Notes under the pieces: generated by a model
What the model was told of the DNA's origin: nothing
The model's input: only the letters and a program-made list of their open reading frames with translations
Database searches by the model: none
Assembly: GCA_021815405.1 (NCBI GenBank)
Contig: JAKAGV010000016.1
Span: forward strand, 62,001 to 126,000
DNA from: Bacteroidota bacterium
GTDB lineage: Bacteria > Bacteroidota > Ignavibacteria > Ignavibacteriales > Ignavibacteriaceae
DNA length: 64,000 bases
Reading direction: 5' to 3'
Shown: in pieces, positions 34,331 through 53,209 of the stretch
Numbering within the stretch: the first letter of the stretch is position 1
Layout: each line of letters starts with the position of its first letter
Position numbers and translations under genes: made by a program

Positions 34331-34393
34331 TTGCCTTTTTGAAATTTATTTTCTATTATTGAAACGTTTCAATAATCATTTAACCTTTTTAAT
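34331..34393 (+). promoter_or_regulatory. Conserved promoter/operator cassette, copy A (before GH9)
   Basis: Order: TTGCCTTTT (34331), TATTATTG (34354-34361), the perfect palindrome TTGAAACGTTTCAA, and TAACCTTTTTAAT (34381-34393). TTG-20 nt-TATTATTG resembles the Bacteroidota TTG/TAnnTTTG promoter with one mismatch. The palindrome resembles a LacI-family operator and would overlap the transcription start. The distances TTGCC to GAAACG (30) and GAAACG to TAACC (20) are identical in copies B and C. Confidence 0.75.
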
Positions 34394-34455
34394 TAAAAGC
34401 TTATTTATCACATTATAAAATAATATTCCCTTTAATCAATAAATATGGATCTGCT

Positions 34456-37026
34456 ATGAAAAGTACTGTTACATTATTTAAAAAAAATTATAGTCTAATT
34501 AAGTTGATACCGGCTGTTATCCTGTTTGTGTTGATTTATTATTCTACCTCTTTTGCTCAAGATGCAAAACTCAAGTTGAATGATCTCGGATATTTTCAAA
34601 CCAGGGGATTGGATGTTTTGGTTTTCAGTAATCAATATAACGGTTATTTTTTTGATGAAAAAACTGCAGGTATAGAACTTATACATTACGGCGTAAGAAC
34701 AGCTACAAACGGGGCTGTTAGGCTAAGATGTACTCCGGAACAGTGGGATCTAGTACCGATGGTTACTAATAGAAAAGTTGACAAGCAGAATAACAGTATC
34801 GAGGTAGATCTTCAATATAAGCAATATGATTTTAATTCGAAGGTTGTAGTTACGGCAAAAGATCAGGGAGTATTAATTGATGTATTTCTTGATAAGCCGT
34901 TACCTAAAAAACTTGAAGGTCATGCAGGCTTCAATCTTGAATTTTTACCTTCCGCATATTTTGGAAAGACGTATTTAATGGATGGTAGTCCTAGAATATT
35001 CCCAAAATATCCTGCCGGACCTATGGAAGTAAAACCGAGGAAGGATGGAATTCCTCAATTGTTCGGACTCTCTACTTTCGATGATAGAGGTAAAGATGTT
35101 TATGTTGATCCACTTCCAATGGCAACGGGGAAAACAATTGTGCTTGCACCGGAAGATTCCTTGCAGCGGGTTGAGATTGAATCTTTGGAAGGTAATCTGA
35201 TGCTTTACGACGGACGCAATGTTGCACAGAACGGTTGGTTTGTTGTGCGAAGTCTTATTCCCCCGAATAAAACAGGTAAGGTGGTTGAATGGTATCTGAC
35301 TGCAAGTACAATTAATAATTGGATCCGAAAGCCGGTAATCGGTTTTTCTCAGGTTGGTTACTATCCTACTCAGGAAAAGGTTGCGGTGATAGAACTTGAT
35401 AAACATGATACGCCGGAAAAAACAGCCTCTCTTTATAAGGTTATGCCTGATGGAAATTTTAAGGAAGTGTATACAGGCGATGTAAAATTATGGGGATCTT
35501 TTCTTCGTTATAATTACGCAAGGTTTGATTTTTCTTCTATTAAAGACAGCGGACTTTATGTTATTCAATACGGCAATGAAAGAACCGACGCCTTTCCTAT
35601 CGATAAACATGTTTATGATAATATATGGCATCAAACCCTGGATGTATTTATGCCGGTACAAATGGATCATGTTTTCGTTAAGGATGCATACAGGGTTTGG
35701 CATGGAGTTTCTTATTTAGATGATGCAAGGCAGGCACCACCAAATCTGCAACTAATGGATAATAAAAGAATGGGACCGGTTACTGGCACACGCTATAAAC
35801 CGGGAGAACATATTCCCGGATTAAATGTAGGCGGCTGGTTCGATGCGGGTGACTTTGATGTTGAAGAAAACTCTCAATGCGAAGCAATATCTTCTCTGGC
35901 TGATACATGGCTGCAGTTCAAGCCGAAATTAGATGAAACTTACATTGATGAAAACCAGCGTTATGTTTGTATTCATGACCCGGATGGCAAACCTGACATT
36001 CTACAGCAAATTGAACATGGCGTTCTTCTTCAACTCGGAATGCAAAAAGCATTTGGACGTGCTATTCCTTCACTCGAGATGCCTCATCTTTATCAATATG
36101 TTCATCTCGGTGATGCATCTACAATAACTGATAACTTAATTTATGATCCTAAGTTAAAACCGTATGAAGTTAAAGGCGATTACAGCGGAACCCCAGATGA
36201 TAGATGGGCGTTTACTACAGACGAACCCTGGATGAACTATAATTCCATAGCTTGCCTTGCAAATGCAAGCCGTGCTTTTAAAGGATATGATGATAAGCTT
36301 TCCAATGAGTGCTTAACAACTGCCGAAAAATCATTTGACCGCCAGCTAAAGGATACAAGCGGCAGCTCAAACAGATTTGCAAGATTCTTTGGGGCAGGCA
36401 TGTCAACTTCTGCTGCCTTGCAGCTATTCATCGCTACAAAAGACAAAAAGTATGAAGACATATTCCTTAAAGATATTCGCGTAGGACTTGAAAGATTTCC
36501 TGAAATGAGCATTGAAAATGCACTAATTGCAATTCCATATTTAGGAAGCGAATATAAAGCGGAGTTGGAACCTTACATTAAAAAATTAAAGACGATGGAT
36601 GATTCGCTCCTTATACAAAATCCCTACGGCGTACCGATTGGAACCAGGCATTGGGGCGGTGATGATGAAGTAATTAGTTGGGCTACAATAAATTATTATG
36701 CACACAAGGCTTTCCCAGAAATTATAGGTCCGGAATATACGCTCCGCGGGATAGATTATCTTTTCGGATGCCATCCGTATTCAAATCTTTCGTTTGTTGC
36801 AGATGTAGGTACACGCTCTAAGAATGTTGTTTACGGACGTACCAGAGCAGACTTTTCAAATGTTGCCGGTGCAGTTGTCCCAGGCTTGCTTATGCTTCAG
36901 CCGGATTTCCTAGAAAACAAAGACGACTGGCCGTTCTTCTGGGGAGAGAATGAAGCCGTTATAAGTACTGCCGGTGAATATATATTCCTTAGCAATGCAG
37001 TAAAAGAATTATTGAATACTAAATAG
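34456..37026 (+). CDS. GH9 endoglucanase with large N-terminal beta region
   Basis: Likely inverting endo-beta-1,4-glucanase or xyloglucanase. Signal peptide to about STSFAQ. Residues about 35-290 are a beta-rich region I cannot assign. A CelD_N-like Ig domain (about 293-385, KPVIGFSQVGYYP) precedes the (alpha/alpha)6 barrel (about 400-856). Catalytic residues: Asp463 and Asp466 in WFDAGDFD, and Glu833 in GENEAVIS. 856 aa, longer than a minimal GH9 because of the N-terminal region. No sorting tail is present, unlike the xylanases. It has its own copy of the conserved promoter/operator upstream, so it probably shares control with the TonB receptor. Confidence 0.92.
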   Translation: MKSTVTLFKKNYSLIKLIPAVILFVLIYYSTSFAQDAKLKLNDLGYFQTRGLDVLVFSNQYNGYFFDEKTAGIELIHYGVRTATNGAVRLRCTPEQWDLVPMVTNRKVDKQNNSIEVDLQYKQYDFNSKVVVTAKDQGVLIDVFLDKPLPKKLEGHAGFNLEFLPSAYFGKTYLMDGSPRIFPKYPAGPMEVKPRKDGIPQLFGLSTFDDRGKDVYVDPLPMATGKTIVLAPEDSLQRVEIESLEGNLMLYDGRNVAQNGWFVVRSLIPPNKTGKVVEWYLTASTINNWIRKPVIGFSQVGYYPTQEKVAVIELDKHDTPEKTASLYKVMPDGNFKEVYTGDVKLWGSFLRYNYARFDFSSIKDSGLYVIQYGNERTDAFPIDKHVYDNIWHQTLDVFMPVQMDHVFVKDAYRVWHGVSYLDDARQAPPNLQLMDNKRMGPVTGTRYKPGEHIPGLNVGGWFDAGDFDVEENSQCEAISSLADTWLQFKPKLDETYIDENQRYVCIHDPDGKPDILQQIEHGVLLQLGMQKAFGRAIPSLEMPHLYQYVHLGDASTITDNLIYDPKLKPYEVKGDYSGTPDDRWAFTTDEPWMNYNSIACLANASRAFKGYDDKLSNECLTTAEKSFDRQLKDTSGSSNRFARFFGAGMSTSAALQLFIATKDKKYEDIFLKDIRVGLERFPEMSIENALIAIPYLGSEYKAELEPYIKKLKTMDDSLLIQNPYGVPIGTRHWGGDDEVISWATINYYAHKAFPEIIGPEYTLRGIDYLFGCHPYSNLSFVADVGTRSKNVVYGRTRADFSNVAGAVVPGLLMLQPDFLENKDDWPFFWGENEAVISTAGEYIFLSNAVKELLNTK

Positions 37027-37041
37027 ATCAAGTTGACAATT

Positions 37042-37377
37042 TTATTTGCAAATTAAATTTAAAATCCACCTTCTCAGAAGGTGGATTTTTAATTTCGGAT
37101 AGCTCTTGAATATCTTTATCGCCGTCTTCGCATTCAATACTCTCATTACTTTTGATATTAATAATTTCGGCGGTATGCTTACTTCTGGATGAATATGGTC
37201 TATTTGTATATTTAATTCTTTTTTCTGACAGCCTAACCATTCTAATAACATCACTAGATCTTCTTGTAGTTGTTGCTTTCTTATTCCTTCTAATATCTTG
37301 AATCTGTACTTCAGTGTCCAGACCATGTGATAATCACATCGATATATTACATGGCTTAATTTCTTGAATTCACTCAT
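37042..37377 (-). pseudogene. IS200/IS605 TnpA transposase remnant
   Basis: The reading frame MSEFKKLSHVIYRCDYHMVW matches Y1 transposases of the IS200/IS605 family. The HUH-like DHIH motif and the SIPPK and KTAIKIFKSYP blocks are present. The protein is only 111 aa: after SYPKLK the normal C-terminal third, which carries the catalytic Tyr, is missing and is replaced by about 15 residues read through the terminal hairpin. Substitutions in conserved spots (HPEV after HIH) also suggest decay. It lies between GH9 and the TonB receptor and is the only believable minus-strand gene. Confidence 0.85.
37061..37090. terminator. Strong hairpin after GH9, also the IS200 end palindrome
   Basis: AAAATCCACCTTCT (37061-37074) is complementary to the following AGAAGGTGGATTTT, with almost no loop, and runs into T residues. 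It can serve as a bidirectional terminator for GH9. It also matches the subterminal hairpin expected at an IS200/IS605 end, since it borders the broken transposase. A second GTGGATTTC at about 37436 may mark the other end. Confidence 0.7.
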
Positions 37378-37568
37378 CTGCCCATTTTACTGTTTTTCTG
37401 GCAGAGCCGAAAGAACATCACCACCATCAAAAAAAGTGGATTTCTTAGTTTCATTAAAATTTATAATTTAAGAATAGGACCAAGTAGTTTGAAAAAAAAT
37501 TTTCATCAAATAGACTTTGGTTATATCGGATAAAAAGATAACGATGTTATTAATAAATAATTTTTTCC

Positions 37569-37631
37569 TTGCCTTTTAGAAATTTATTATTTATTATTGA
37601 AACGGTTCAAATAATATCTAACCTTTTTAAT
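37569..37631 (+). promoter_or_regulatory. Conserved promoter/operator cassette, copy B (before TonB receptor)
   Basis: Order: TTGCCTTTT (37569), TATTATTG (37592-37599), TTGAAACGGTTCAA and TAACCTTTTTAAT (37619-37631). The palindrome has G instead of T at its centre-right, the only change from copy A within the 14-bp core. Spacing is identical to copies A and C. The leader to the receptor ATG at 37849 is unusually long (about 230 nt) and contains a small AGGGA...TCCCT hairpin just before the ribosome site. Confidence 0.75.
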
Positions 37632-37848
37632 GGATATTATAAACGCCAGTTACTATTTATTAAGATATAGAATTGATTGTGTGTTCCTACAGAATGAATT
37701 TGAGGGATTTGATAGTTGTTATTAAGCGCTATTATTGAAGTTGAAAAAAGTTAGACAAAAATAAATTGTTCTCAAATAAATAATAATTATCTAAATATTG
37801 AGGGAAAAAAAATCCCTTAAGTCATTAAAAATATTCCTTGGAGGAAAA

Positions 37849-40800
37849 ATGATCATTGATAATTACCGTTTCGGAGGCAAATTAGCTTCGGTAATAATCC
37901 TTTTATTGTTCCTTTCTTTTCAAACAAAAATATTTGCCCAATCTGGTACAATTAAGGGACGCGTTTTTGATAAACAAAGCAAAAGCGCCCTGGTTGGGGC
38001 AAATGTTATTATTAAGGGGACAAGCCTTGGTGCTGCAGCAGATTTGGATGGTAACTATATTATCCACAATGTTCCGGGTGGCAGACATATTTTTATTGTA
38101 TCTTATATTGGTTACATATCGGATACAGTTGCCATTATCATGTCAGAAAACAGAATTGAGGATCATAACTTTTATCTTGAGCCAAAAGCGATCCAAGGGA
38201 AAACTATAACAATAACAGCTCAAGCACAAGGACAAGTCTCCGCAATTCAGCAGCAGTTATCTTCAAATAAAATCGAGAATGTTGTATCTGAAGCAAGGAT
38301 ACAAGCGCTGCCGGATTTCAATGCGGCGCAGGCTATAGGTCGTCTTCCGGGTATTTCTACATTGCAGAGTTCAGGCGAAGCTAATAAAATTGTAATCAGA
38401 GGCTTAGCACCAAAATATAATAGAATAGAAATTGGCGGTGTTGAACTCGCTTCAACCGGAAGTTCACAAATTGGTATTACATCGCAGGGAGGAACCGCAG
38501 GAAATATTAGTAACGACAGAAGTGTAGATTTATCCTCTATATCATCATATATGCTAAAAAATATAACAGTATATAAAGAACTTACTCCTGATATGAATGC
38601 TGATGCTATTGGCGGCGTTGTTAATATGCAATTGAGAGAAGCACCTTCGAAGTTTCATACCGATTTGTTATGGCAATCAGGCTATACTGCAAAAAGTAAA
38701 ACCTATGGAAACTACAGGGCGATGGGAGCCGTGAGTGATCGCTTTTTCAATGAAAAGTTTGGTGCTTATGTACAAGGAAGTATTGAATCTTACGATCGAA
38801 ACGCTGATAATATGAACGCATCGTATTTTACTACTAACACGGATATTGATTTAGCAACCGGGTATCGTCCTGTTAGGGTTGGTACTGTTCAACTTATTCA
38901 CCATATTGAAACGAGGAAAAGATACGGCGCGAATCTCGTGCTTGATTATAGACTGCCGAACGGTTCTATTAAGCTTATCAATATGGCAAGCCGGCTTAGT
39001 TCTAATTACCAAGACTATAATACAACCCTAAACTATCAAACTAACGATCTTCAATTCAATTTTAGCGGAGGGGATAATACAACTGATTTAGCACTTAATT
39101 CCTTAGACATTACAAATGACTTTGGCTTTATGCAGTTTCATTTTACTGCAGCTAATAATTATTCCAGGAATTTTCTGCCGGAAACACCACGTATTCAATT
39201 TACACAAACAAGAGGAGTGGGAACATCTACAGTAAATACTCCGCCAGAAGATCTTACCAATCTTGTTGGTTATTCAGGTCCTTCAGGCAGTTATTTAGAT
39301 TATTTAGGTTTGTACAGTTCAGACTATAAAGAAAATGATCAATCATATAAAACTTCTTTCAAGATTCCTTTTAATTTTGCTCAGGAACTTGTGGGATATC
39401 TTAAAGTTGGTGGAGAATACTCTTATAGGCTACATAAGAATAACCAAAATACACCTTATGCAAATATTGGAGGAACAGATTCTATCCAAACCCGAATGAC
39501 GAATGGTATACTTTCCCAATGGCCCCAATTAGCAAGTTCTTTTGATAGAGGTTTAAACAGATTTTACTCTTCCGGCTTTGGCTCTCTTTATAATGATTCT
39601 TTCCTTAGTAACAGGTTCGGAGATTTGCTGTGGACTACGAACCCAGGATTGCTGAATGATATAACTCACTATTTGGCAACAGATCCATACTTTAGTTCTA
39701 CTGTTAACTCATCGGCAGCCAATCCGGGCGGATGGTTTGACGGAGTGTTCCAGACTATGGCAAACACTTATAAGTATATTGAAAGATATTATGCCTTCTA
39801 TGCTATGTCTGAATTGAATTACGGGAACTTGATGGTTGTTGGAGGTGTACGTTATGAAGATTTAGAAGGTTTATATGAAGCATTTAATCTATTAGACGGA
39901 CGTAATCCAGCAACAGATAAAGCTTTTCTAGTCAATTCATATCCTAAAAATCATTACTGGTTTCCAATGGTTCAGGGAAAATATATGCTGACTGATTGGC
40001 TTGATCTTCGCGCAGCATATACTCAAACTCTTGCACGACCCGATTATCATCAACTTTCGCCTCATTTTACAATCGCCTACGGTGGAGGTTCTGTTACAGC
40101 AGGTAATCCGAATTTAGTGCCTGCCCAGGCTTACAACGATGAGGTTTCTCTAACGTTCCATTCCAATGATCTCGGTCTTGCTTCAATAAGCGGTTTCTAT
40201 AAAGAAGTAAAGAATTTTACATACTCGACAAATTATCCTTTATACAATACTGCCCCTGCAGGATATGATACGGTTGGCAAGTATAATATAGGCGGACATT
40301 TGCCTGTTTCTGGTGCAACGTTATTTACTTATATAAATACTCCGTACACTGCTTATATTAGAGGAGTAGAAGTCGATTTACAGCACACATTCTGGTATTT
40401 ACCTGCTCCGTTTAATGGATTATTAATTGGGGTTAATTATACTCATATAAGTTCTAATGCCAGATATCCGTTGCTGACTACAAAGACTACTTACCGACCC
40501 AGACCTCTACCTCCTTTAACTCAAATAATTGATAGCAGCCGTGCAGGTCGTTTAATTGATCAACCAAATGATGTAGTAAATGCATGGATCGGTTATGATT
40601 ATGAAGGCTTTTCTGCAAGAGTTTCCTTCTTATTCCAGGGCAATGCCGTTAGTTATATTGGAAACTACCCGGAACAAGATGGATTTACTAGAGATTATTT
40701 TAGGATTGATGCTACAGTAAGCCAGATATTACCATGGCAAGGTATCCGAGTTTACCTGGATTTAAACAATCTTAACAATGAGGACAATACATCTGCTCAA

Positions 40801-40875
40801 AAGTCTATTGGCGGATTTACAAATGAACAAAACTATGGTCTTACGGCAAATCTTGGTATAAGGTATACATTATAA
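37849..40875 (+). CDS. TonB-dependent outer-membrane receptor with regulatory-like N-domain
   Basis: Active importer of oligosaccharides across the outer membrane. Order: signal peptide (to about FAQ), carboxypeptidase-regulatory-like beta domain (GTIKGRVFDKQSKSALVGAN), plug (about 110-250, RLPGISTLQ, VIRGLAPKYNRIEIGGVEL, MNADAIGGVVNMQLRE) and a 22-strand barrel ending in an aromatic-rich strand (GIRYTL). ATG 37849 with GGAGG (37840-37844) is preferred over the TTG at 37798, giving 1,008 aa. It is followed not by SusD but by a beta-helix protein, so it looks like an orphan receptor rather than a SusC/D pair. Xylan or xyloglucan fragments are the contextual substrate. Confidence 0.93.
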   Translation: MIIDNYRFGGKLASVIILLLFLSFQTKIFAQSGTIKGRVFDKQSKSALVGANVIIKGTSLGAAADLDGNYIIHNVPGGRHIFIVSYIGYISDTVAIIMSENRIEDHNFYLEPKAIQGKTITITAQAQGQVSAIQQQLSSNKIENVVSEARIQALPDFNAAQAIGRLPGISTLQSSGEANKIVIRGLAPKYNRIEIGGVELASTGSSQIGITSQGGTAGNISNDRSVDLSSISSYMLKNITVYKELTPDMNADAIGGVVNMQLREAPSKFHTDLLWQSGYTAKSKTYGNYRAMGAVSDRFFNEKFGAYVQGSIESYDRNADNMNASYFTTNTDIDLATGYRPVRVGTVQLIHHIETRKRYGANLVLDYRLPNGSIKLINMASRLSSNYQDYNTTLNYQTNDLQFNFSGGDNTTDLALNSLDITNDFGFMQFHFTAANNYSRNFLPETPRIQFTQTRGVGTSTVNTPPEDLTNLVGYSGPSGSYLDYLGLYSSDYKENDQSYKTSFKIPFNFAQELVGYLKVGGEYSYRLHKNNQNTPYANIGGTDSIQTRMTNGILSQWPQLASSFDRGLNRFYSSGFGSLYNDSFLSNRFGDLLWTTNPGLLNDITHYLATDPYFSSTVNSSAANPGGWFDGVFQTMANTYKYIERYYAFYAMSELNYGNLMVVGGVRYEDLEGLYEAFNLLDGRNPATDKAFLVNSYPKNHYWFPMVQGKYMLTDWLDLRAAYTQTLARPDYHQLSPHFTIAYGGGSVTAGNPNLVPAQAYNDEVSLTFHSNDLGLASISGFYKEVKNFTYSTNYPLYNTAPAGYDTVGKYNIGGHLPVSGATLFTYINTPYTAYIRGVEVDLQHTFWYLPAPFNGLLIGVNYTHISSNARYPLLTTKTTYRPRPLPPLTQIIDSSRAGRLIDQPNDVVNAWIGYDYEGFSARVSFLFQGNAVSYIGNYPEQDGFTRDYFRIDATVSQILPWQGIRVYLDLNNLNNEDNTSAQKSIGGFTNEQNYGLTANLGIRYTL

Positions 40876-40951
40876 TAATAGCAAAATTTTAAACTTATTT
40901 TTAATAAGTATATGAAAGTAAATCAGAAACATAATCAAGGAGGTATATAGT

Positions 40952-42742
40952 ATGAAATATTTATTCACATTACTTTTTTTCACAATAGTCATCTCACTGC
41001 CCATATATGCGCAGAAGGATACTGTATACGTTCCCGATACCTATGATATGGGTGGTCAGGAAGGTACTCTAAACAATGCTGTAGATTCAGTTCAGAACGC
41101 TGGCGGGAATATATCCAATGTTGTTTTTAAACTGAAACCTTACGGTTTATATGTGCTCAGCGGAACGATAACTACCAAAGCAGGTCAAACACTTGAGATA
41201 GACGCCGATCCTCCGGGTAATACTCAGGCAACAGCCCCGCCTATGATTGCATGGACTGAAAACACTGCACCGAATAAGGCATATTATTTTGATATACCAG
41301 GTACACTTATAATGAATAATCTTTGGCTGTTATGGTCAGGTACTAATGGAACACGCTTCGCATCTACTATACGTATCGGTGATTCAGCTTCAGTTGCAGG
41401 CGGACGTATTACAGCCAATAACGTTATCTTCGATTATGTTGATCAATCCTCAAGCGGTGCAATACAGCCCTACGCAACTCACTTCGTAGGACATTTCACA
41501 AATTGTTATTTTAGAAATTGTACGGATAATCATTTCAGGTATTACAGTAGGGCTGTTTCCTGGCCTTATAATACTACCGGACTGCATAATGATACTGTTT
41601 CATTTGAGAATTGTACTTTCGCTAATATAGGATATGTTTATATGCAGGAAGGAGGGGAGTATGGAGACAATGTCTTCTTTAACCACTGTACTTTTTATAA
41701 CGTTGTTATGTATACACTGGAATCCGGCTGGTGGTGGAATATGTATGTTACAAATTCATTGTTTATAAATACATATATGGTTGGCATGATTCCTCTTACT
41801 GATGGCGGAGGAGCCGGAGGAACTATAAGCATTGCACCCGTGGACACTACAGTTTTTGCAAACAATGATACTGTTGCAGGCTTCGGGTTTACTGTTCCTT
41901 TTAAAGAACAGGATCGTCATATTCTTTTTGTCAATAACGACTATCATTTAGATTCCTGGCTGGTTAGCTGGATGGCGAATAATCCTTACAGTATAAGTCT
42001 TCACCAAAACAGGCATGATAATCAAATACCAGTACCGCAGCCAGCTATCAATAATCTTACAAAAATGTTTTTTGATACGACAAATGCTGATGGAAGCAAA
42101 ATGTTCCCTTATATGAATATGGCTAACCTCGATACTCTCGATCCAGGCTTTAAGAATCCTCCAATTAATTTAGATTCACTAAAGCAATTCCTCTATCATA
42201 AATGGTTTGACAACGGAGATGTAGGTTGGGCATGGAAGCCTGAAAATAGCTACCAAAAACAATTGTGGCCTCCCGAAGAGGATATGTCATACACAAACAG
42301 CACTTTAGAAACTGCAGCGATGGGCGGCTTCCCTCTAGGAGATCTATATCATTGGTGGCCCGCTCAGTATCAACAATGGGCGGCACAAGCGGATGCCGAA
42401 CACAACAGAATTAATACCTGGCTTATGACAGGCAAAGATCCACTTACTGGTGTCGTTGATTTAAAGAGTGGTATTCCTGTAAGTTATTCGCTTAGCCAAA
42501 ACTATCCGAATCCGTTCAATCCAACAACAAATATAGAATATTCTGTTCCGAAGAGCGGATATGTAACGCTTAAGGTATTCAATATACTTGGACAGGAAGT
42601 GGCGACCATTTACCAGGGTTACCAGAAGGCAGGTACATATAAAGCTGACTTTAACGCCACTGAATTAGCGAGCGGCATCTATTTATACCAATTGCGGGCT
42701 GGAAGCGTTACTCTTACAAAAAAATTGGTTTTAATGAAATAA
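40952..42742 (+). CDS. Secreted beta-helix protein with T9SS tail, unknown activity
   Basis: Signal peptide to about IYAQ. Residues about 60-330 show right-handed beta-helix character: repeated short strands with NCYFRNC, ENCTFANIG, NHCTFYNV and TNSLFINTY steps, as in pectate-lyase-like folds. A less regular tail follows. The T9SS type A sorting domain occupies about 512-596 (NYPNPFNPTT, terminal KLVLMK). 596 aa. I see no confident catalytic signature. It follows the TonB receptor after about 75 bp with an AAGGAGG site and may be its surface partner in place of SusD, which is speculation. Could be a lyase, esterase or glycan-binding protein. Confidence 0.75.
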   Translation: MKYLFTLLFFTIVISLPIYAQKDTVYVPDTYDMGGQEGTLNNAVDSVQNAGGNISNVVFKLKPYGLYVLSGTITTKAGQTLEIDADPPGNTQATAPPMIAWTENTAPNKAYYFDIPGTLIMNNLWLLWSGTNGTRFASTIRIGDSASVAGGRITANNVIFDYVDQSSSGAIQPYATHFVGHFTNCYFRNCTDNHFRYYSRAVSWPYNTTGLHNDTVSFENCTFANIGYVYMQEGGEYGDNVFFNHCTFYNVVMYTLESGWWWNMYVTNSLFINTYMVGMIPLTDGGGAGGTISIAPVDTTVFANNDTVAGFGFTVPFKEQDRHILFVNNDYHLDSWLVSWMANNPYSISLHQNRHDNQIPVPQPAINNLTKMFFDTTNADGSKMFPYMNMANLDTLDPGFKNPPINLDSLKQFLYHKWFDNGDVGWAWKPENSYQKQLWPPEEDMSYTNSTLETAAMGGFPLGDLYHWWPAQYQQWAAQADAEHNRINTWLMTGKDPLTGVVDLKSGIPVSYSLSQNYPNPFNPTTNIEYSVPKSGYVTLKVFNILGQEVATIYQGYQKAGTYKADFNATELASGIYLYQLRAGSVTLTKKLVLMK

Positions 42743-46000: not shown

Positions 46001-46895
46001 ACGCAACGGCGTTGACTCTTCCCTTGTAATTAATGGACAGATAGAACTTGACGGCGGCGGCTTCCAAAGCGCAGGCAGCCTACGTTTTGGATTGTTCAGC
46101 AATGCCAATCCAGGAAAAGTAACGGTAATTTCCGATACAGTTAATGGTGTTGTTTACGATTCTACAAACTGGACAGGATCGAATGCTCATGAATCAGGTT
46201 ATCTTTTCATTCCTCCAAGCGGATCTAACCCGCTTGTTAACTGGGGTTCAACACCTGGTACTTGGGGAAGTGTTATAAACGGAGCCTGGGATAGTACAAA
46301 TACCGGTTATGTTCTCGGTTCAGATGCAGTTGTTCCTGCTAATGCAGAAGGAACTGCCGGGACATACAATTTTGCGATTTCCGTTGCACCGGCAGGAAAC
46401 GGTAAACAAGAAATAGCTTATGAATTGAAAAAAACGGATAACTCTTACATCTTAACAGGCGCTGCTATTGATAACCACAGTACGCTCCCGGCTACTCAAT
46501 TCAATGGTATTATCTTTGCTCTTGGACCAGGTAATACAACCACTGCATTGAAGCTGACAAACGTCCAGGTAACGTTGGGTAAACCACTTGTTGTTACATC
46601 TGTTGATAACGAGCCTAATTCGGGATTACCGATGAGTTATTCTTTGAGCCAGAATTATCCGAATCCATTCAACCCATCTACGACAATTAATTTTGCTTTA
46701 CCGAAGAGCGGTAATGTAAGCTTGGTTGTTTATGATATTTTGGGAAGGGAAGTAGCTCATTTGGTAAACGGCGAATTGCAAGCCGGATATCATAAAGTCG
46801 AATTCAATGCCGACAATCTTGCCTCCGGAGTTTATTTCTATAGACTTAAGGCGGGAGACTTTGTTAGTGTTAAGAAACTTATGTTACTCAAATAA
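43041..46895 (+). CDS. 1,284-aa secreted protein: shared N-module plus four ~250-aa repeats and T9SS tail
   Basis: Signal peptide to about LWAQ. A beta-sandwich module (about 30-195) is nearly the same as two modules in the GH10 at 59227 and probably binds glycan. Four tandem units then begin at Trp198, 441, 692 and 943 (periods 243, 251 and 251 aa). Each has WGxxxxxGxWP, GNGxxxxxxGWAT, LRYAxxxEDSATL, EEQNNKYWFGG and KFNAIxFG-type landmarks. Units 2 and 3 are almost identical, also at DNA level; unit 4 is the most divergent. A T9SS sorting domain occupies about 1200-1284. No catalytic motif is recognised. The EQNNKYWFGG block is rich in aromatics, as in sugar-binding surfaces. Probably a surface xylan-binding or scaffold protein (inference). 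Confidence 0.85.
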   Translation: MKKLFNLMITIIITFFFISAGTLWAQNITQNFEGFSIGDSTSIGHISWAPTDIKTVIVADPLGSGSKVLKVTSTNYNAAPVLMFVLPAGKTLADYDSVTFDGYFQAGDVSYKLIIAEAYQTNPIGHHFLDADTNYSYNRAQGVSTGWEHISLAPNKASTFSDTVYIAIGTNNSGATWYMDNVTLVAKAASGSSLVSQWGKTSLGTAWPLVPNANAGNIGIGNGKVPTGWATVSGHFGTLTATTTQAVVVTGQMQFVGGGGASAYTWLRYALTFQDSATLNYAGTDSALWVSSLKHYGYEFDPISGAGTMANSNAGQGTIWAVNNGNWSSTYSNGGPPLAAIMNQPYNAEAIAGTYNFAISVESVNDTVNQLNWYLEEQNNKYWFGGSIQVVSTSKKFNAISFGFNNDFQGTQVNFTNVQAQLGAPITVPAAPWESYYLKQWGITSPGGYWPITNDSTTIIGNGTIKGSAPVNGSGWATIEGGFGQALKVPTNADSALLVTGQLVFTGTKGGDDSYTPLRYAIAYEDSATLKNALTDSAKWVSGSGSYTGYGFMPVSGAGTMSNASGKGQGTVWTINNGTWYSTYANGNPVSQALQQPYQASIIPGTYNFAFSITQVNDTTNEIRWYLIEQNNKYWFGGTVMAPANTNKFNAICFGVNTGDWTQLDVENAMVDYGKPITVPAAPWQSYYLKQWGITSPGGYWPITNDSTTVIGNGTIKGSAPVNGSGWATIEGGFGQALTVPMSTDSALIVTGQLVFTGTNGGDDSYTPLRYAIAYEDSATLKNALTDSAKWVSGSGSYTGYGFMPVSGAGQMSNAAGKGQGTVWTVNHGTWYSTYANGNPVSQALQAPYQASIIPGTYNFAFSISQVNDTTNEIRWYLIEQNNKYWFGGTVMAPANTNKFNAICFGVNTGDWTQLDVENAMVDYGKAITVPSAPWQDFYVKNWGFYQGQMGGWLFMPGDVVGNAGIGGSKANTGWAAIRGDITGAAPRNGVDSSLVINGQIELDGGGFQSAGSLRFGLFSNANPGKVTVISDTVNGVVYDSTNWTGSNAHESGYLFIPPSGSNPLVNWGSTPGTWGSVINGAWDSTNTGYVLGSDAVVPANAEGTAGTYNFAISVAPAGNGKQEIAYELKKTDNSYILTGAAIDNHSTLPATQFNGIIFALGPGNTTTALKLTNVQVTLGKPLVVTSVDNEPNSGLPMSYSLSQNYPNPFNPSTTINFALPKSGNVSLVVYDILGREVAHLVNGELQAGYHKVEFNADNLASGVYFYRLKAGDFVSVKKLMLLK
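43632..46600 (+). repeat. Four tandem ~750-bp coding repeats
   Basis: Repeat starts (TGGGG codons) fall at 43632, 44361, 45114 and 45867, giving spacings of 729, 753 and 753 bp. Copies 2 and 3 share long runs of identical bases (for example around GGTTATTGGCCGATAACGAA), so they are a recent duplication or are kept alike by gene conversion. Confidence 0.92.
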
Positions 46896-46920
46896 CGTCC
46901 TCTAAATGTAATGTTGTTAG

Positions 46921-46952
46921 CAGTCCCGATTTTTATCGGGACTGTTTTTTTT
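46921..46952 (+). terminator. Strong rho-independent terminator
   Basis: CAGTCCCGAT (46921-46930) pairs perfectly with ATCGGGACTG (46935-46944) over a TTTT loop, followed by eight T residues. It ends the transcript of the repeat protein. Confidence 0.95.
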
Positions 46953-46993
46953 ATCAAGTTTATTTATGTATTATCAATTCATCAAGGGTAATT

Positions 46994-48742
46994 TTGAAAA
47001 AATCTTTACTTAATCTAGTCTGCAAATCTTTTAGATGTTCTTTCTATTTTTCAATAATTTTATCAATTTTAATTTCGTTAAGAGTTTTTTCCCAAACAGA
47101 TCCAATCCAGACAGATGTACCTTCACTTAAAAATGTCTATGCACATGATTTTTATATCGGCTGTCTTTTATCTTACGCGCATGTTGGATTTCCTACAGAT
47201 CCCGTGGTGCCGGGGCAATCGTCAGTAGTTGACCCTAACGGAGGGTATTTAATAAAATTCCATATGAACTCAATGAGCCCAGGTAATTGGATGAAATCAG
47301 CTTACATTGTGGATATAGCCGGCAGCGCTTCGGCTTATGCTGCAGCATCTACTCAGGCTGAGAAAGATTCTATAGATGTGCATCCAATTGTCAAGTTCAA
47401 CGGTAATATTGTTGCTCAACTTAACTGGGCAAAGAGACAGGGCTTTACATTTAGGGGACATACTTTAGTTTGGCACAATCAAACACCGGGCACTGCATTC
47501 TTTCGATCAGGTTACACAACAACAGGTGCACGTCTAACCAAAGATAAAATGAAGGAGCGATTAGAAAACTATATCGAAGAAGTAATACGTTTATTACATG
47601 AAGGTTGGCCAGGACTGCTGTCAGCATATGATGTTGTGAATGAGGCTATAGATGACAATACCGGCGCTGTTCGTACAACCGGAAATGAATGGTACACAAC
47701 TTTCGGCGATTCAACTTACATAATGGATGCTTTTGAATTTGCACGCAAATACACTCAGTTGTACGGCGAAAACCAAATTAGGCTTTATTATAACGACTAT
47801 AATACAGAGAATCCGAAAAAAGCGGATGGCATTGTTCGACTTTTAACACCTATATTCCAAGCAGGATATCTTGATGGTATCGGAATGCAGGAACATAACA
47901 ATCTTTCATCTCCGGTTTCCGCTCAAAGTTTTATTGATTCGTACAATAAATTTTTCCCAATCTGTAATGAGATGGCGGTTACTGAATTAGATGTTGCGAC
48001 CGGAATCAGCACTCCATCCAATGCTGTTCTTGCAAATCAGGCGAATGAATATGGGATGTTATTTAAATGTTTTGTCGAGAGAAGTTACAAATCAGGTCGA
48101 GGTAAAATTATTAACGTCTCGAAGGATGGATTGAACGATGCCTGGACGTTTCAAGCTAATCAATCATCCTCTTTGTGGGATTCTAAAGATCAGTGCAAGC
48201 CTGCGTTTTATGCTGTCGCTGATGTCGGCATATATTATAATTATTTGGATTCTTTAATTTCATATTCAGATTCACTTAAAGAAAATGATTATACTTCTGC
48301 TTCATGGTCAAATTTTTCAGAAGCATTAACTTCAGCAAAAAATGCAATGAGCCAAAATTATTCAGTTTCTGTTTCGGCTGCCGATGCATTAGGCGGAGCG
48401 AAAGATTCTCTTGAAACTGCGATTAACTCTTTGGTGGAAGTAACGTCAGATGTCAGCTCAGCTAATTTAAAAGGACCTCAGTCTTTCTTCCTTAGTCAAA
48501 ATTTTCCAAATCCATTTAACCCGACCACACAGATAAAGTATTCTGTTCCTAATGACGGATTTGTTTCGCTAAAAGTTTACAATCTACTTGGACAGGAAGT
48601 AGCAACTTTATTTGAAGGCAACCGGCATGCAGGAAAATATATTTTAATCTTCGATGGAAGTAAACTGGCAAGCGGAGTTTATTTATACCAGCTTAAATCA
48701 AATGACTTTTTAGATACAAAGAAACTTGTCTTGCTTAAGTAA
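46994..48742 (+). CDS. Endo-xylanase GH10 with FIVAR domain and T9SS tail
   Basis: TTG start at 46994 supported by AAGGG (46984-46988); the encoded signal peptide ends near RVFSQ. GH10 barrel about 45-400 with GHTLVWHNQTP, acid/base Glu217 in YDVVNEAI and nucleophile Glu331 in VTELDVATG. Residues about 410-475 form a FIVAR-like helical domain (YTSASWSNFSEALTSAKNAM), and a T9SS sorting domain ends the protein (NFPNPFNPTT, KLVLLK). This GH10 is distinct from the two close paralogues at 12837 and 59227, so it probably has a different product profile. Short loops after the barrel could affect substrate size. Confidence 0.94.
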   Translation: MKKSLLNLVCKSFRCSFYFSIILSILISLRVFSQTDPIQTDVPSLKNVYAHDFYIGCLLSYAHVGFPTDPVVPGQSSVVDPNGGYLIKFHMNSMSPGNWMKSAYIVDIAGSASAYAAASTQAEKDSIDVHPIVKFNGNIVAQLNWAKRQGFTFRGHTLVWHNQTPGTAFFRSGYTTTGARLTKDKMKERLENYIEEVIRLLHEGWPGLLSAYDVVNEAIDDNTGAVRTTGNEWYTTFGDSTYIMDAFEFARKYTQLYGENQIRLYYNDYNTENPKKADGIVRLLTPIFQAGYLDGIGMQEHNNLSSPVSAQSFIDSYNKFFPICNEMAVTELDVATGISTPSNAVLANQANEYGMLFKCFVERSYKSGRGKIINVSKDGLNDAWTFQANQSSSLWDSKDQCKPAFYAVADVGIYYNYLDSLISYSDSLKENDYTSASWSNFSEALTSAKNAMSQNYSVSVSAADALGGAKDSLETAINSLVEVTSDVSSANLKGPQSFFLSQNFPNPFNPTTQIKYSVPNDGFVSLKVYNLLGQEVATLFEGNRHAGKYILIFDGSKLASGVYLYQLKSNDFLDTKKLVLLK

Positions 48743-48789
48743 AACTAAAATGTTTGACATTATATATTTATGATTTGAAAGATGATGAA

Positions 48790-50673
48790 ATGAAAAAATT
48801 AATCTTTTTATTGTTAATGTTTTTTTCAGTTGCAGGTGCTCAGACATATAAAGTAACCGGAACCGTATCAACATCGACCGGACCGGTTAAGTCTGCATTA
48901 GTTACTTTTGTAAATAATCAAGATACATCACAAACATATTCTGCGGTGACAGATACAAATGGGAAATATCAATTGGATCTAATTACTTCGGTTAATTCCA
49001 GTAATACAATTCTTCCAAATAAATTTGAACTTGGTCAAAACTATCCGAATCCGTTTTCTACGTCGACAGACATTCCTTATAAACTCAACTCTCAGTCCGA
49101 TGTAAGGGTTACTATTTATGATATTCTCGGAAGAGTTGTAAGAAAATTTTCAGCAGATGCTCAAGCAGCGGGAATTCATAGCATTATATGGAACGGAAGA
49201 AATAATTTTGGAGTTAAGGTTGCAACCGGAATTTATTTTTACAGGCTTCAGGCAAACGGCGAAACTTTAGTAAAGAAAATGGTACTTGATGAAGGCGGTA
49301 AAAATTTTTTAATCCCTTCACCTGCAACTTCTCTTTCGCTGAACTCAGGTATTGAAAAAACAGCGGCTGTAAATCTTCAAAGCGGTATATATTCTGTTCA
49401 GATAAATAATACCTCAAACACTTATCCTCTAATTCTACCTCAGCAATTTAATAATATTGAAATACAAAGCGATACCACTTTGAATTTTTCTGTCAGTATT
49501 CCAAGTCAAGACATAGTTTATTTAGACAGCACACAGCAAATTATCAGAGGATTCGGCGCAGCAAATATTGTTCAATGGAGACCCGATATGACTGCTGCTG
49601 AAATTCAAACTGCTTTTGGAAACGGTCCCGGTCAGTTAGGATTTACATTACTACGGCTTAGAATTCCGCCAGACTCAACATCATTCAAGTTAAACGTTCC
49701 TACTGCCAAAGCTGCTTATTCATTAGGAGCTAAAATTATTGCATCGCCGTGGACTCCGCCCGCATGGATGAAAAGCAACAACAGCACTATCGGCGGAACA
49801 CTTGATACCAGCGCATACACTGCTTATGCAGCACATTTAAAAGCATTCGCAGATACAATGGCGAACAATGGCGTTCCATTATATGCCGTCTCTGTTCAAA
49901 ATGAACCTGACGCGCATGTAGGTTATGAATCTTGTTTCTGGGATGGCACACAATTCCTTAACTTCATGAAGTACAATGCACCGGAAGTCGGAGTTCCTGT
50001 TTTCATGCCTGAATCGGAAAGCTTTGTTCACCAATTATCGGATTCAACATTGAATGATTCAATTGCAGCTTCTCATGTTGCATTCGTAGCCGGACATTTA
50101 TATGGAGTGAGTCCTTCTTCTTATCCGCTTGCTCTTTCCAAGGAGAAGGAACTGTGGATGACAGAGCATCTCACTACCACTAGCGATTCATCAAACAGCT
50201 GGTCTACAAATCCTGTTTATGAGTGGCCTGCTGCAATACCTGTAGCTAAGGAAATCAATGATTGCATGAACGCTAACATGAGTGCCTACGTATGGTGGTA
50301 TATTGTTAGATTTTACGGACCCATTAATGAAAATGGAAATGCAACAAAACGCGGCTATATTATGGCACAGTATTCAAAATTTATTCGACCCGGATATTAT
50401 AAAATTGCCTGCAACTATCTTCCGCAAAGAAATGTTTATGTAACTGCTTATAAGGATCCCGCATCTTCAAAAGTGGTAGTTGTTGCGGTTAATATGAGCT
50501 CATCAACATTATATCAAACATTTTTAATTCAAAATGGAATTATGAATTCATTTACTCCCTACACAACTTCTGAAACAGAGAATATTCAGCAAGGAAGTAA
50601 TTTAACAGTAACTAACGGAAGTTTCACTGCTGCTTTGGAACCATCGAGCATAACAACTTTTATTTCTAATTGA
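48790..50673 (+). CDS. GH30 xylanase with internal T9SS-type sorting domain
   Basis: Order from ATG 48790: signal peptide (to about VAGAQ); a regulatory-like beta domain (about 18-70, YKVTGTVSTSTGPVKSALV); a T9SS/FlgD-like sorting domain at about 75-167 (LGQNYPNPFSTST, then GIYFYRLQANGETLVKKMVL); a linker; the GH30 barrel and side sheet (about 241-627). Catalytic Glu372 in VQNEPD is acid/base and Glu459 in LWMTEHL is nucleophile. GFGAANIVQW fits xylan-type GH30. The sorting domain normally sits at the C-terminus, so its internal position is odd. The in-frame TTG at 48754 is rejected because it lacks a signal peptide. It likely cuts glucuronoxylan, as GH30_8 does, but the subfamily is inferred. 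Confidence 0.9.
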   Translation: MKKLIFLLLMFFSVAGAQTYKVTGTVSTSTGPVKSALVTFVNNQDTSQTYSAVTDTNGKYQLDLITSVNSSNTILPNKFELGQNYPNPFSTSTDIPYKLNSQSDVRVTIYDILGRVVRKFSADAQAAGIHSIIWNGRNNFGVKVATGIYFYRLQANGETLVKKMVLDEGGKNFLIPSPATSLSLNSGIEKTAAVNLQSGIYSVQINNTSNTYPLILPQQFNNIEIQSDTTLNFSVSIPSQDIVYLDSTQQIIRGFGAANIVQWRPDMTAAEIQTAFGNGPGQLGFTLLRLRIPPDSTSFKLNVPTAKAAYSLGAKIIASPWTPPAWMKSNNSTIGGTLDTSAYTAYAAHLKAFADTMANNGVPLYAVSVQNEPDAHVGYESCFWDGTQFLNFMKYNAPEVGVPVFMPESESFVHQLSDSTLNDSIAASHVAFVAGHLYGVSPSSYPLALSKEKELWMTEHLTTTSDSSNSWSTNPVYEWPAAIPVAKEINDCMNANMSAYVWWYIVRFYGPINENGNATKRGYIMAQYSKFIRPGYYKIACNYLPQRNVYVTAYKDPASSKVVVVAVNMSSSTLYQTFLIQNGIMNSFTPYTTSETENIQQGSNLTVTNGSFTAALEPSSITTFISN

Positions 50674-50680
50674 GTGAAAG

Positions 50681-52360
50681 ATGAAACGCTCAATTATAAA
50701 AAAAATATTTACATCATTGAGCTTGTGGCTGGTAATAATTTTCATTTCTAAACTCTCAGCTCAACCAAATGAACCAGTAAATAAGAATGATATTCCGCAT
50801 CTTGAAAAACAGGGAACAACAATGCAAATGATAGTCAACGGTAAGCCGTATTTGATGCTTGCCGGTGAGACTGGAAATTCAAGTGCATCGGACTTAAGCT
50901 ATATGAAAACAATCTGGTCAAAGATTGTTGCGGAGCATTTAAATACTCTTGTGGTTCCTGTATACTGGGAACTTATTGAACCCGAAGAAAACGAATTCAA
51001 CTTTACTCTAGTCGACAGTATAATTATCGCAGCCAGGCAAAATAATATTAAGCTGGTATTTCTTTGGTTCGGAACGTGGAAGAACAGTATGTCATGTTAT
51101 GTTCCGCTTTGGATAAAGACTAATGAAGAAAGATTCCCTCGTGCAAGAATGAAAAACGGAAGAGCCGAGGAGATACTTACCGCATTTAATAAATCCAACC
51201 GAGATGCTGATGCATTTGCATTCTCTCATTTAATGAAACACATACGTCAGTTTGATGAGAAAAAGCAGACTGTTATTCTCATTCAAGTAGAAAATGAAAT
51301 CGGAATGATTCCTACTGCAAGAGACTATTGCAAAGAAGCTGACAAGGCGTTCAACTCTGCTGTGCCTGAAGAATTCATTAATTATTTAAAAGGAAACAAA
51401 AATAAGCTGAATCCTTATCTTTATGATTTATGGCAGAAAAACGGATTTAAAACTAATGGCAACTGGGAAGAAATTTTCGGCAAAAGTATAGCGACCGATG
51501 AAGTATTTATGGCTTGGAATTATGCCAAGTACACAAATTATGTCGCTGAAGCCGGCAAGAAAGAATATCCTTTGCCAATGTATGTTAATGCTGCGCTCAT
51601 TCGTCCTGGTTATAAACCAGGGCAATATCCTAGCGGAGGTCCACTGCCTCATCTTATGGATATCTGGAAGGCTGCAGCACCAGCAATTGATTTCCTTGCG
51701 CCTGATGTTTATTTCCAGACTTTTGCTGAGTGGGTTTCAAAATATGATATTCCAATCGGCGAGCCGGGGCAAATTTATAACCAGTTCTTCATACCTGAAG
51801 TCGGAAATAATCAAAGTTTAGTTAATGCTTACTATGCAATTGCAGAGCACAATATAATGGGCTATAGTCCTTTCTCGATTGAATCTCTCAAAGATCCTAC
51901 CAATAATCAAGTGTCGAAGGGATATAAAGTACTCGGAGAGCTTTCTCCTCTTATTCTTGCCAACCAAGGCAGAGGTACAATGGCAGGAGTAATTCTTGAC
52001 AGTGCAAGTCAGGTAGAAAAAATAAAATTAGGAGATTATATTTTCGTTTGTCATCATGAATACAGCTGGCCTTTTGCACCAAAGACTGAGGGAGCCAATC
52101 CAAGGTACGGCGGAATGATAATTATGATTTCACCGAATGAATATTACATTGCCGGACGAGGGTTGGTTGTAACATTTGAGTCCGCTTCTGATGACGGTTC
52201 AATTGCCGGCATCGGTAGTCTTGATGAAGGAAAATTTGTAAACGATAAATGGATTCCGGGATTGAGAATGAACGGAGATCAAAGTCATCAAGGCAGGCAC
52301 ATGGATTTGCCGGGAAATACTTACAGTATCCAGAAAGTAATCCTTTATAAATATAAATAA
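50681..52360 (+). CDS. GH35/DUF5597 beta-galactosidase-like enzyme
   Basis: Secreted retaining enzyme of the GH35 type. Signal peptide to about KLSAQ. The GKPYLMLAGETGNSS strand starts the barrel. VPVYWELIEPEENEFNF, the acid/base Glu206 in VENEIG and the likely nucleophile Glu373 in IPEVGNN fit GH35. A C-terminal DUF5597-like beta domain follows (about 430-559). 559 aa. In xyloglucan or arabinogalactan breakdown it would remove beta-galactose side residues. The gene starts only 7 bp after GH30, so they are probably co-transcribed. No sorting tail is present. Confidence 0.86.
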   Translation: MKRSIIKKIFTSLSLWLVIIFISKLSAQPNEPVNKNDIPHLEKQGTTMQMIVNGKPYLMLAGETGNSSASDLSYMKTIWSKIVAEHLNTLVVPVYWELIEPEENEFNFTLVDSIIIAARQNNIKLVFLWFGTWKNSMSCYVPLWIKTNEERFPRARMKNGRAEEILTAFNKSNRDADAFAFSHLMKHIRQFDEKKQTVILIQVENEIGMIPTARDYCKEADKAFNSAVPEEFINYLKGNKNKLNPYLYDLWQKNGFKTNGNWEEIFGKSIATDEVFMAWNYAKYTNYVAEAGKKEYPLPMYVNAALIRPGYKPGQYPSGGPLPHLMDIWKAAAPAIDFLAPDVYFQTFAEWVSKYDIPIGEPGQIYNQFFIPEVGNNQSLVNAYYAIAEHNIMGYSPFSIESLKDPTNNQVSKGYKVLGELSPLILANQGRGTMAGVILDSASQVEKIKLGDYIFVCHHEYSWPFAPKTEGANPRYGGMIIMISPNEYYIAGRGLVVTFESASDDGSIAGIGSLDEGKFVNDKWIPGLRMNGDQSHQGRHMDLPGNTYSIQKVILYKYK

Positions 52361-52522
52361 CCTGCTTAATTAATGCTTGAAAATTGAAATCATTGAGCAA
52401 GCAGTAGAGAGTCTTCCATGATGAATCTAACTCTAAACTTTTTTTGCATAATTTCATTCATTACATTGGTGAATCCGGCTTTTTGAGCAAGCGAATAAGG
52501 CTTTGCTTAAAATATGATTTAG

Positions 52523-52759
52523 TATCAAATACACGCCAATGCTTCAATCGAAATCAAAGTAAAAGTATTAAACAACGTTAATGTTGATCCTAGGATTATT
52601 ACACTTAAATATCTTGTAAAGGTTGAAGCAGGGAGATCAATCAAATGGAGAGACGGCTTTGTGCTGTATTTCCAGACATTTTCAAAGCTGCTGGTTCATG
52701 CTGGTTTGCCAAAACCGAAACACGATTTAAAATACTATGAAGCTCATAATCCGATGTAA
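52523..52759 (+). pseudogene. Unidentified coding remnant
   Basis: An open frame with no usable start encodes about 78 residues, including VKVEAGRSIKWRDGFVLYFQ and the ending HDLKYYEAHNPM before TAA. Codon texture looks coding and the tail looks like a true protein end, but the frame is closed upstream by TAG at 52520-52522 and there is no ribosome site. I cannot place the family. Confidence 0.4.
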
Positions 52760-52930
52760 AATAATTCTTGAAATTATTCTTTTTTTGAAATTAATTTAAA
52801 CCTGCAGTAAAATTTCATGTATTAAATCAGAATCTTACCTGAAGTCCTTCAGAAAAATAAATTCAATTATCTTCAATCGTAATTTTTATAATTTATAAAA
52901 GGATCAATTTTGGATATGATTATTTTTTCT

Positions 52931-52993
52931 TTTGCCTTTTAGAAAGATATTTGTTATTATTGAAACGTTTCAATGAAAATTTAACCTTTTTAA
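52931..52993 (+). promoter_or_regulatory. Conserved promoter/operator cassette, copy C
   Basis: Order: TTGCCTTTT (52931), TATTATTG (52954-52961), TTGAAACGTTTCAA and TAACCTTTTTAAT (52981-52993), with exactly the same spacings as copies A and B. It lies about 310 bp upstream of the XylR-like regulator. It is followed first by a short ORF resembling a truncated receptor gene, so it may be a leftover of a lost transcription unit or may now drive the regulator. Confidence 0.75.
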
Positions 52994-53062
52994 TAAAAAA
53001 AGATTTAATTAAATCAGGGAAATCAATTCCTTGGGGCAGAAATAAAAAAGAATGACGGTAAA

Positions 53063-53209
53063 ATGATTAAGTATGGTTACCAATTAAGTAGCAAAATAAT
53101 TTCGGAGATTATTTTAAAAAAAATTTTGCATTGCTATCCGCAATACCCTCGCAAATGTATTATATTAAAAAAATATCCTATTCAATCATATGAAAAGTGC
53201 ATTTAAGTT
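53063..53209 (+). pseudogene. Possible 5' stump of a second TonB receptor gene
   Basis: A 48-codon ORF begins MIKYGYQLSSKIISEIIL. Aligned codon by codon with the receptor start at 37849 (MIIDNYRFGGKLASVIIL), eight of the first 18 residues match without gaps, and both follow the same promoter cassette. After residue 18 the similarity ends and the sequence becomes charged and AT-rich, with no signal peptide. Weak on its own, stronger with the shared promoter. Confidence 0.35.

Follow-up and report, generated by a model that had tools for sequence, protein, structure and literature searches.

Regulators of the LacI family provide the closest described systems for the element considered here. In excerpts from a survey of LacI-family regulons, even palindromes with a central CG are the rule among operators, intersite distances peak at 13, 22 and 32 bp (the latter two read as cooperative binding of two dimers), and the RafR regulogs of Enterobacteriales and the ScrR regulogs of Burkholderiales contain only double sites, 21–22 bp apart (PMC4052901). 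In Bacteroides, according to part of a second study, xylose control is assigned to XylR, of the NrtR family, and glucuronate control to LacI-family proteins (PMC3878776). Here we analysed a 64,000-nucleotide stretch of Bacteroidota DNA (the window; positions 62001–126000 of the 160,713-base contig C5 of genome G000, which has 4,974,758 bases in 31 contigs) that carries three copies, A, B and C, of one promoter–operator cassette. We consider it probable that each copy is a primary-sigma promoter under a tandem operator pair of one LacI-family repressor, most likely the product of C5:128523. Among the matches listed in literature searches for LacI and xylan in Ignavibacteria, and for LacI regulons, Bacteroidetes and xylose, this regulator was not described.

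Predicted promoter and primary operator of the cassettes

An initial annotation of the window had described three cassettes with fixed spacing, and direct reading bore this out. The copies begin at window positions 34331, 37569 and 52932 on the plus strand, the last having been placed at 52931 initially. The blocks TTGCCTTTT, TATTATTG and TAACCTTTTTAAT are without any difference among A, B and C, and their start-to-start distances are constant, at 23 bp from TTGCCTTTT to TATTATTG and 27 bp from TATTATTG to TAACCTTTTTAAT; the distances of 30 and 20 nt quoted earlier are the same geometry measured from different anchors. Copies A and C contain the palindrome TTGAAACGTTTCAA and copy B the variant TTGAAACGGTTCAA, with the single base change that had already been noticed. 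In an ungapped 71-column alignment, the spacer letters GAAA and TATT are also unchanged.

When the full 4.97-Mb genome was scanned for the core TATTATTGAAACGTTTCAA-N8-TAACCTTTTTAAT with up to three mismatches, only A, B and C were found, and the reversed control gave no match. The palindrome by itself is not rare, with three matches in the window at up to two mismatches, a number reached by 3 of 100 shuffles. A 71-column model built from A, B and C (R1) matched the copies themselves with E values of 3.5e-19 to 5.5e-18, the next matches in the same genome being C5:147945 (E 5.3e-4) and then C5:33377 (E 0.018), upstream of a TonB-receptor gene. The cassette is real and conserved, and the regulon prediction is well supported.

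If the copies were recent duplicates of one promoter, their identity would say little about function. The copy A counterpart in genome G007 (locus L106) aligns with copy C at 82% along 111 bp, and because this similarity extends beyond the cassette, part of the identity between A (window 34331–34393) and C (52932–52994) may be due to duplication, which tells against a purely functional explanation. However, the spacers between the blocks have diverged while the blocks are unchanged, and cassettes are kept across genera and families, including genomes with TonB receptors that are 47–62% identical, and before LacI genes. This conservation across genera contradicts duplication as the full explanation, which we regard as extremely improbable; as the origin of the copies, promoter duplication is possible and is suggested by the G007 match.

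All three copies carry TTGCCT, a 17-bp spacer and TATTAT. Class I promoters, found on C5 and in other genomes, have TTGACA, 17 bp and a TAATAT- or TATTAT-like −10 element followed by the same palindrome; cassettes like A–C fall in class II. The primary-sigma promoter consensus of Bacteroidota has TTTG at −33 and TAnnTTTG at −7, and that of E. coli sigma-70 is TTGACA-17-TATAAT. A promoter with a 17-bp spacer has the geometry TTG-N20-TA, so the Bacteroidota-type and −35/−10 readings are equivalent and the Bacteroidota-type promoter named in the initial annotation is acceptable. Copies A–C carry TTG-N20-TATTATTG, with one mismatch to the −7 box of the Bacteroidota consensus, and the operator at C5:33381 is preceded by a complete TTTG-N20-TATCTTTG promoter at C5:33341. 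Genome-wide, TTTG-N18–20-TAnnTTTG occurs 157 times versus 109 times in the reversed sequence, an imperfect control, which modestly favours the Bacteroidota form. For TTGACA-N16–18-TAWAAT the same imperfect control gave no genome-wide excess (21 versus 21), and a purely E. coli reading is weakened by this result for its near-exact consensus. In all three copies the predicted transcription start coincides with the palindrome's central CG. The earlier proposal of a promoter with a LacI-type operator at its predicted start is supported.

The palindrome, referred to here as the primary operator O1, is of the type TTGAAAC-G/C-GTTTCAA, an even palindrome with a central CG, as LacI-family operators are defined in the excerpted survey (PMC4052901). 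Its exact consensus, TTRAAMCGKTTYAA, occurs at nine places in the genome, seven of them on C5, that is, within 160,713 of 4,974,758 bases. The claim that the motif defines a regulon invisible in the gene annotation is upheld with its number of sites revised, as the contig holds seven exact-consensus operator places rather than three. At up to one mismatch the palindrome has 49 places in the genome (the nine exact ones included) versus 55 in the reversed control, and lone palindromes with one mismatch were for this reason disregarded. Two of the exact places are on other contigs (C16:118768 and C29:6951) and were rejected as regulon members; neither has the promoter and one is at the start of an open reading frame (ORF).

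The third block as a candidate second operator

The 14-mer that begins 20 bp downstream of the O1 start (+20) matches TTRAAMCGKTTYAA at 12 of 14 positions in copy A, 11 in copy B and 12 in copy C, and among the offsets tried in each copy (from 14 to 79 downstream and from 14 to 80 upstream) +20 gave the best match. Of 20000 shuffles of the 3′ flank of copy A, 5 reached 12 matches at the fixed offset and 159 did so when any offset was allowed. A score of at least 12 is reached by 11 of the 63,987 plus-strand 14-mers of the window, among them the three O1 sequences and two of those at +20 (O2). Copies A, B and C thus each have the layout of a double site, with a similar second site at a constant spacing near two helical turns.

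A half-site profile of seven columns, for which only primary operators were used, was moved stepwise through the flanking sequence of 31 promoter–operator sites, some of which had been fetched through matches to R1, a model that includes the third block. The top offset was +20 for class I (z 8.7, n = 15), for class II (z 6.3, n = 16) and for both (z 10.0). None of 1000 shuffles of the 3′ flanks reached the +20 value when G131:6302, a likely false site present in the 31-site profiles, was dropped. The same result was obtained with a thinned set (n = 18) that was chosen by hand and retains two class I sites of one genus (G153 and G155), and with class II alone (0 of 1000; n = 15, thinned n = 9). 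Sites G131b:4119 and G103:10983 were included in the profile and shuffle tests and left out of the later site alignment. Eight class I sites came purely from regulator neighbourhoods (G155, G146, G147, G101:4357, G141:181, G152, G153 and G131b), and seven of these have TTGAAC at exactly +20.

Beyond the order to which the window's genome belongs, nine regions from eight genomes were picked solely because they hold a regulator homolog. Five of the nine regions contained operators of at least 12 bits, ten in all, and five of these operators, in four regions, also had a match to the promoter pattern. For these five sites the best offset was +20 once more (z 4.0, reached by 0 of 1000 shuffles), and three of the five carry it.

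The +20 block has the form TTGAAC in class I, TTGAAACC at C5:33381 and T[TC]TAACC in class II. Two relatives have a more complete O2, TTTAACCGTTTTAA in G118 (found with the 28-site model R2, see below) and TTTAACCAGTTCAT in G176, both nearer to a whole operator than those of the window. On these sequence comparisons, the third block probably belongs to a second operator that is degenerate. The initial annotation had called this block conserved, as it is, and without standard explanation; the latter description no longer holds, since the block reads as a degenerate second operator 20 bp downstream.

Several observations weigh against the second operator. Wide conservation is confined to the left half of O2; its right half depends on the class, being TTGAACTGATAAA in many class I sites and TTTAACCTTTTTAA in the window's genus, neither of which is a full palindrome. 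The class I site G131b:4119 is without a half-site at +20, and at C5:147954, in the window's own genome, the half-site is at +21. Class II has 13 sites outside the window's genome, and for seven of them the model used in the search already included the third block. Among the other six, which came from regulator neighbourhoods, a clear O2 at +20 is seen only in G141:15028 (T[TC]TAACC); G114:2511 has TTGAAC at +21, and no O2 was found in G101:1461, G114:3730, G103:10983 or the doubtful G131:6302. Outside the order, L277:10555 and L278:9831 have no half-site at +20, and four of the nine regions around regulator homologs contain no operator of at least 12 bits. From the counts for neighbourhood sites, the +20 half-site is near-universal in class I and partial in class II beyond the A–C-like cassettes.

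The block is absent from four of the six class II sites found independently of it, and hence is not an obligate partner of the palindrome. This would fit a model in which the palindrome is the sole operator and the third block serves another regulator, such as the XylR/AraC-type protein encoded at 53304, so that a repressor is combined with an activator. Copies A–C have a weaker −35 element (TTGCCT) and carry CCTTTT in both the −35 region and the third block, 50 bp apart, whereas promoters with a full TTGACA have neither the weaker −35 element nor the paired CCTTTT. A XylR-like gene also follows both copy C and its G007 counterpart (there behind GH67). We nevertheless judge a second regulator unlikely, as a clear half-operator, TTGAAC or TTGAAAC, is found at +20 in class I promoters and at C5:33381.

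It is also conceivable that the third block acts in the transcript, within the first 30 nt of the leader, through initial transcription, stability or translation, and that its resemblance to an operator is accidental. The block would lie at about +16 to +28 of the predicted transcript, and its right half is class-specific, with TGATAAA recurring across families in class I. However, the spacing from O1 is exactly 20 bp, an operator-like half-site is found in both classes and in the out-of-order genomes, G118 and G176 have near-complete O2 palindromes, and the leader length and downstream sequence vary among A, B and C. Together these make a role in the transcript very doubtful, and a degenerate second operator is preferred.

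A variant of the tandem arrangement was suggested by a further peak in the 31-site profile, at −20 (z 5.7). The repressor would then read a three-box array (−20, 0 and +20) on one helix face, comprising an AT-rich half-site between the −35 and −10 elements, the palindrome at the start and the half-site downstream, and one good operator would seed a short repressor filament over the whole promoter. After +20, −20 is the next peak when −28, which was selected for, and a +18 signal on the reverse strand (z 5.8), lying over the +20 block, are set aside; its value was reached by 0 of 1000 spacer shuffles. The peak may reflect a third box or the composition of the spacer. GAAA in the promoter spacer (window 34339–34345 and the equivalents in B and C) yields a half-site-like −20 signal. 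Among the eight best offsets of the five out-of-order sites −20 is absent, which lowers the odds of a three-box array, and we regard this variant of the operator pair as rather improbable.

The likely regulator gene and the predicted regulon

The most likely regulator gene is a LacI-family gene at C5:128523–129554, 2.5 kb past the window. LacI-family helix–turn–helix (HTH) genes were searched for in 41 related genomes, ten being found in the window's own genome. The cassette precedes a LacI gene in G034 and G035, by ∼0.1 and ∼0.6 kb, respectively, and in G041 such a gene is the second after the cassette. These three genes are of one subtype, whose member in the window's genome is C5:128523–129554, a gene that lies between the 128463 operator and the class I promoter of 129649. 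Operator-like upstream sites, the neighbourhood and co-occurrence all link this gene to the motif, and it is favoured on these grounds. Its product has a LacI HTH at the N terminus and a periplasmic-binding-like domain at the C terminus and is a LacI-family protein by its Pfam domains (PF00356, 2e-14; PF13377, 2.5e-34; PF00532, 1.3e-31) and matches LacI-family entries of the PDB over nearly its whole length.

The regulator subtype is present in 22 of 164 genomes of the order (E ≤ 1e-15) and, in a sample of 395 genomes from the whole phylum, in 13 (E ≤ 1e-18), the latter including five of the order and some more distant members. With the thresholds of both models set after viewing the match lists, R1 (from A, B and C only) at E ≤ 1e-3 matched seven of eight genomes with the regulator gene versus none of 51 without it, and R2 at E ≤ 1.1e-4 matched all 22 genomes with the gene versus one of 142 without it. 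For R1, the gene-bearing genome missed was G056 and the nearest gene-free genome had an E value of 0.0012; for R2, the next gene-free genome had 4.5e-4. The training sites of R2 were drawn from 16 of the 22 gene-bearing genomes, and the six absent from training (G061, G103, G118, G131, G142 and G145) were all matched. A gene-free genome with the motif, G115 (66% complete, of the genus of G114), is a point against the pairing of gene and motif. At E ≤ 0.1, R2 gave some match in 134 of the 164 genomes, which we regarded as noise.

Of 25 loci, 20 were read, 19 of them orthologs and one the paralog at 8952 (see below). In 15 of the 19 orthologs the 400 bp before the regulator gene contain an operator of at least 12 bits, against a background of 4.6% of random 410-bp windows, which were taken from weak-motif and LacI loci and so are not fully random. 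The other four orthologs are those of G007, with 8.9 bits, G035, where the cassette is located farther upstream, G041, where the gene is the second one after the cassette, and G103. Four further homologs (in G153, G141 and two in G131, one 61% identical) have sites at most 50 bp upstream. The regulator would be subject to autoregulation.

The initial annotation had nominated the LacI proteins encoded at 8952 and 26272, a choice that was not borne out, the motif being linked to C5:128523 instead. The protein at 26272 was rejected; it has an ordinary recognition helix and no operator of at least 9.5 bits nearby. The protein at 8952 is 61% identical to the predicted regulator over the 70-residue DNA-binding region, with nearly the same recognition helix (SKATVSAVLN versus SKGTISAVIN), and could bind the same sites, a point against assigning them to C5:128523 alone. 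However, a second gene of this kind was found only in G000, G007 and G131 in the scan of the order, while the motif is present in 22 regulator-bearing genomes, and the 400 bp preceding 8952 contain no operator (best score −8.2 bits). We therefore think it quite unlikely that the regulator is this paralog or that both paralogs share the sites, and C5:128523 is retained as the predicted regulator.

The sites on C5 precede genes for a GH9 protein (A), a TonB receptor (B), a XylR-like regulator (C), a second TonB receptor (33381) and the regulator itself (128463). The site at C5:129649 is followed by GH3 and then by an MFS_2 symporter, GH8 and GH115, and that at C5:147954 by SDR and UxuA genes on the minus strand, which face an aldo/keto reductase; operon extents were assumed from gene order and strand. 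In relatives, the motif is linked to GH67, GH3, a xylose-isomerase-like protein and a TonB receptor, and also to UxuA/SDR, as judged from the first residues. The predicted regulon is a programme for glucuronoxylan and glucuronate use. The sole named relative found for the TonB receptor is from a Bacteroidetes metagenome bin. The features of the cassettes and their neighbours are listed in Table 1.

Table 1. Positions of cassette elements and neighbouring genes in the window
Feature	Position	Strand	Remarks
Copy A, −35 TTGCCT	34331..34336	+	17-bp spacer to −10
Copy A, −10 TATTAT	34354..34359	+	Predicted transcription start ∼34366, position inferred
Copy A, primary operator O1 TTGAAACGTTTCAA	34359..34372	+	
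Copy A, putative degenerate second operator O2 TTTAACCTTTTTAA	34379..34392	+	12/14 to consensus; spans nearly all of the third block
GH9 protein with CelD_N domain, downstream of copy A	34456..37026	+	
Copy B, −35 TTGCCT	37569..37574	+	
Copy B, −10 TATTAT	37592..37597	+	Predicted start near 37604
Copy B, primary operator O1 TTGAAACGGTTCAA	37597..37610	+	
Copy B, putative degenerate second operator O2 TCTAACCTTTTTAA	37617..37630	+	11/14 to consensus
TonB-dependent receptor, downstream of copy B	37798..40875	+	ORF from TTG; in-frame ATG at 37849 after GGAGG
Copy C, −35 TTGCCT	52932..52937	+	
Copy C, −10 TATTAT	52955..52960	+	Predicted start near 52967
Copy C, primary operator O1 TTGAAACGTTTCAA	52960..52973	+	
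Copy C, putative degenerate second operator O2 TTTAACCTTTTTAA	52980..52993	+	12/14 to consensus
XylR-like regulator (periplasmic-binding-like domain and AraC-type HTH), downstream of copy C	53304..54470	+	
LacI-family paralog of the predicted regulator	8952..9989	+	Nominated in the initial annotation, not favoured

Outside the window, the operator of the second TonB receptor (L064:13381–13394, i.e. C5:33381) has TTGAAACC at +20, and G007 has a similar site. The operator at L068:2054–2067 (C5:147954) lies between the divergent UxuA/SDR and aldo/keto reductase genes, with the +21 half-site on the SDR side, as also in G007. Between copy C and the XylR-like gene, a short ORF (window 53063–53206) begins MIKYGYQLSSK, which resembles the first residues of the TonB receptors (MIIDNYRFGGK and MLIDGYRFGSK), and is possibly a leftover leader. 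Just upstream of copy C, window positions 52547–52756 encode what is likely a C-terminal remnant of a GH67 alpha-glucuronidase. In G007 the counterpart of copy C, an intact GH67 gene and a XylR-like gene stand in a row, which suggests that the copy C locus has been rearranged in the window's genome.

A proposed mechanism and comparison with known systems

In the proposed mechanism, each copy would be read from a primary-sigma promoter (TTG-N20-TATTATTG, with its −35 TTGCCT, 17-bp spacer and −10 TATTAT). Operator 1, the palindrome, would have its central CG on the predicted start, and operator 2, a degenerate copy from exactly 20 bp downstream, would incorporate the third block. Two dimers of the C5:128523 repressor may bind cooperatively, as neighbours on about the same face of the helix, and block RNA polymerase. 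A sugar derived from xylan or glucuronate would release the repressor and so turn on outer-membrane uptake, xylan hydrolases and glucuronate catabolism together.

Through this analysis, a whole predicted glucuronoxylan programme in a Bacteroidota order is given a predicted regulator and a binding motif. A conserved block previously without explanation gains a candidate one. In relatives, genes that lie apart (UxuA/SDR, GH3 and TonB receptors) are connected by the motif, which can therefore aid their annotation.

Tandem LacI-family sites are already known; the value of the present finding is in a named regulator gene and a motif. By analogy, the cassette would operate like the RafR and ScrR double sites as they appear in the survey excerpts, with which it shares an even palindrome with a central CG and tandem sites about two helical turns apart. 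It differs from them in its spacing, which is 20 bp (21 in a few sites) rather than 21–22, in having a degenerate O2 downstream of the predicted start, and in belonging to a regulator from a Bacteroidota order, which is likened to them by site layout alone. CcpA and PurR exert global control, whereas the regulon predicted here is a local sugar regulon. Both are among the closest solved sequences (3oqo, 1rzr and 1bdi) and have the same LacI-type HTH, hinge and periplasmic-binding-like sensor; the recognition helix is SKGTISAVIN here versus SMATVSRVVN among the closest solved LacI-family sequences. The Bacteroides regulators UxuR, UxaR and KdgR, of the LacI family, and XylR, of the NrtR family, are alike in controlling glucuronate and xylose pathways in Bacteroidota (PMC3878776, PMC4052901). 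Set against the descriptions in these excerpts, the present system is distinguished by one LacI-family protein as the predicted common regulator of xylan hydrolysis, uptake and glucuronate use.

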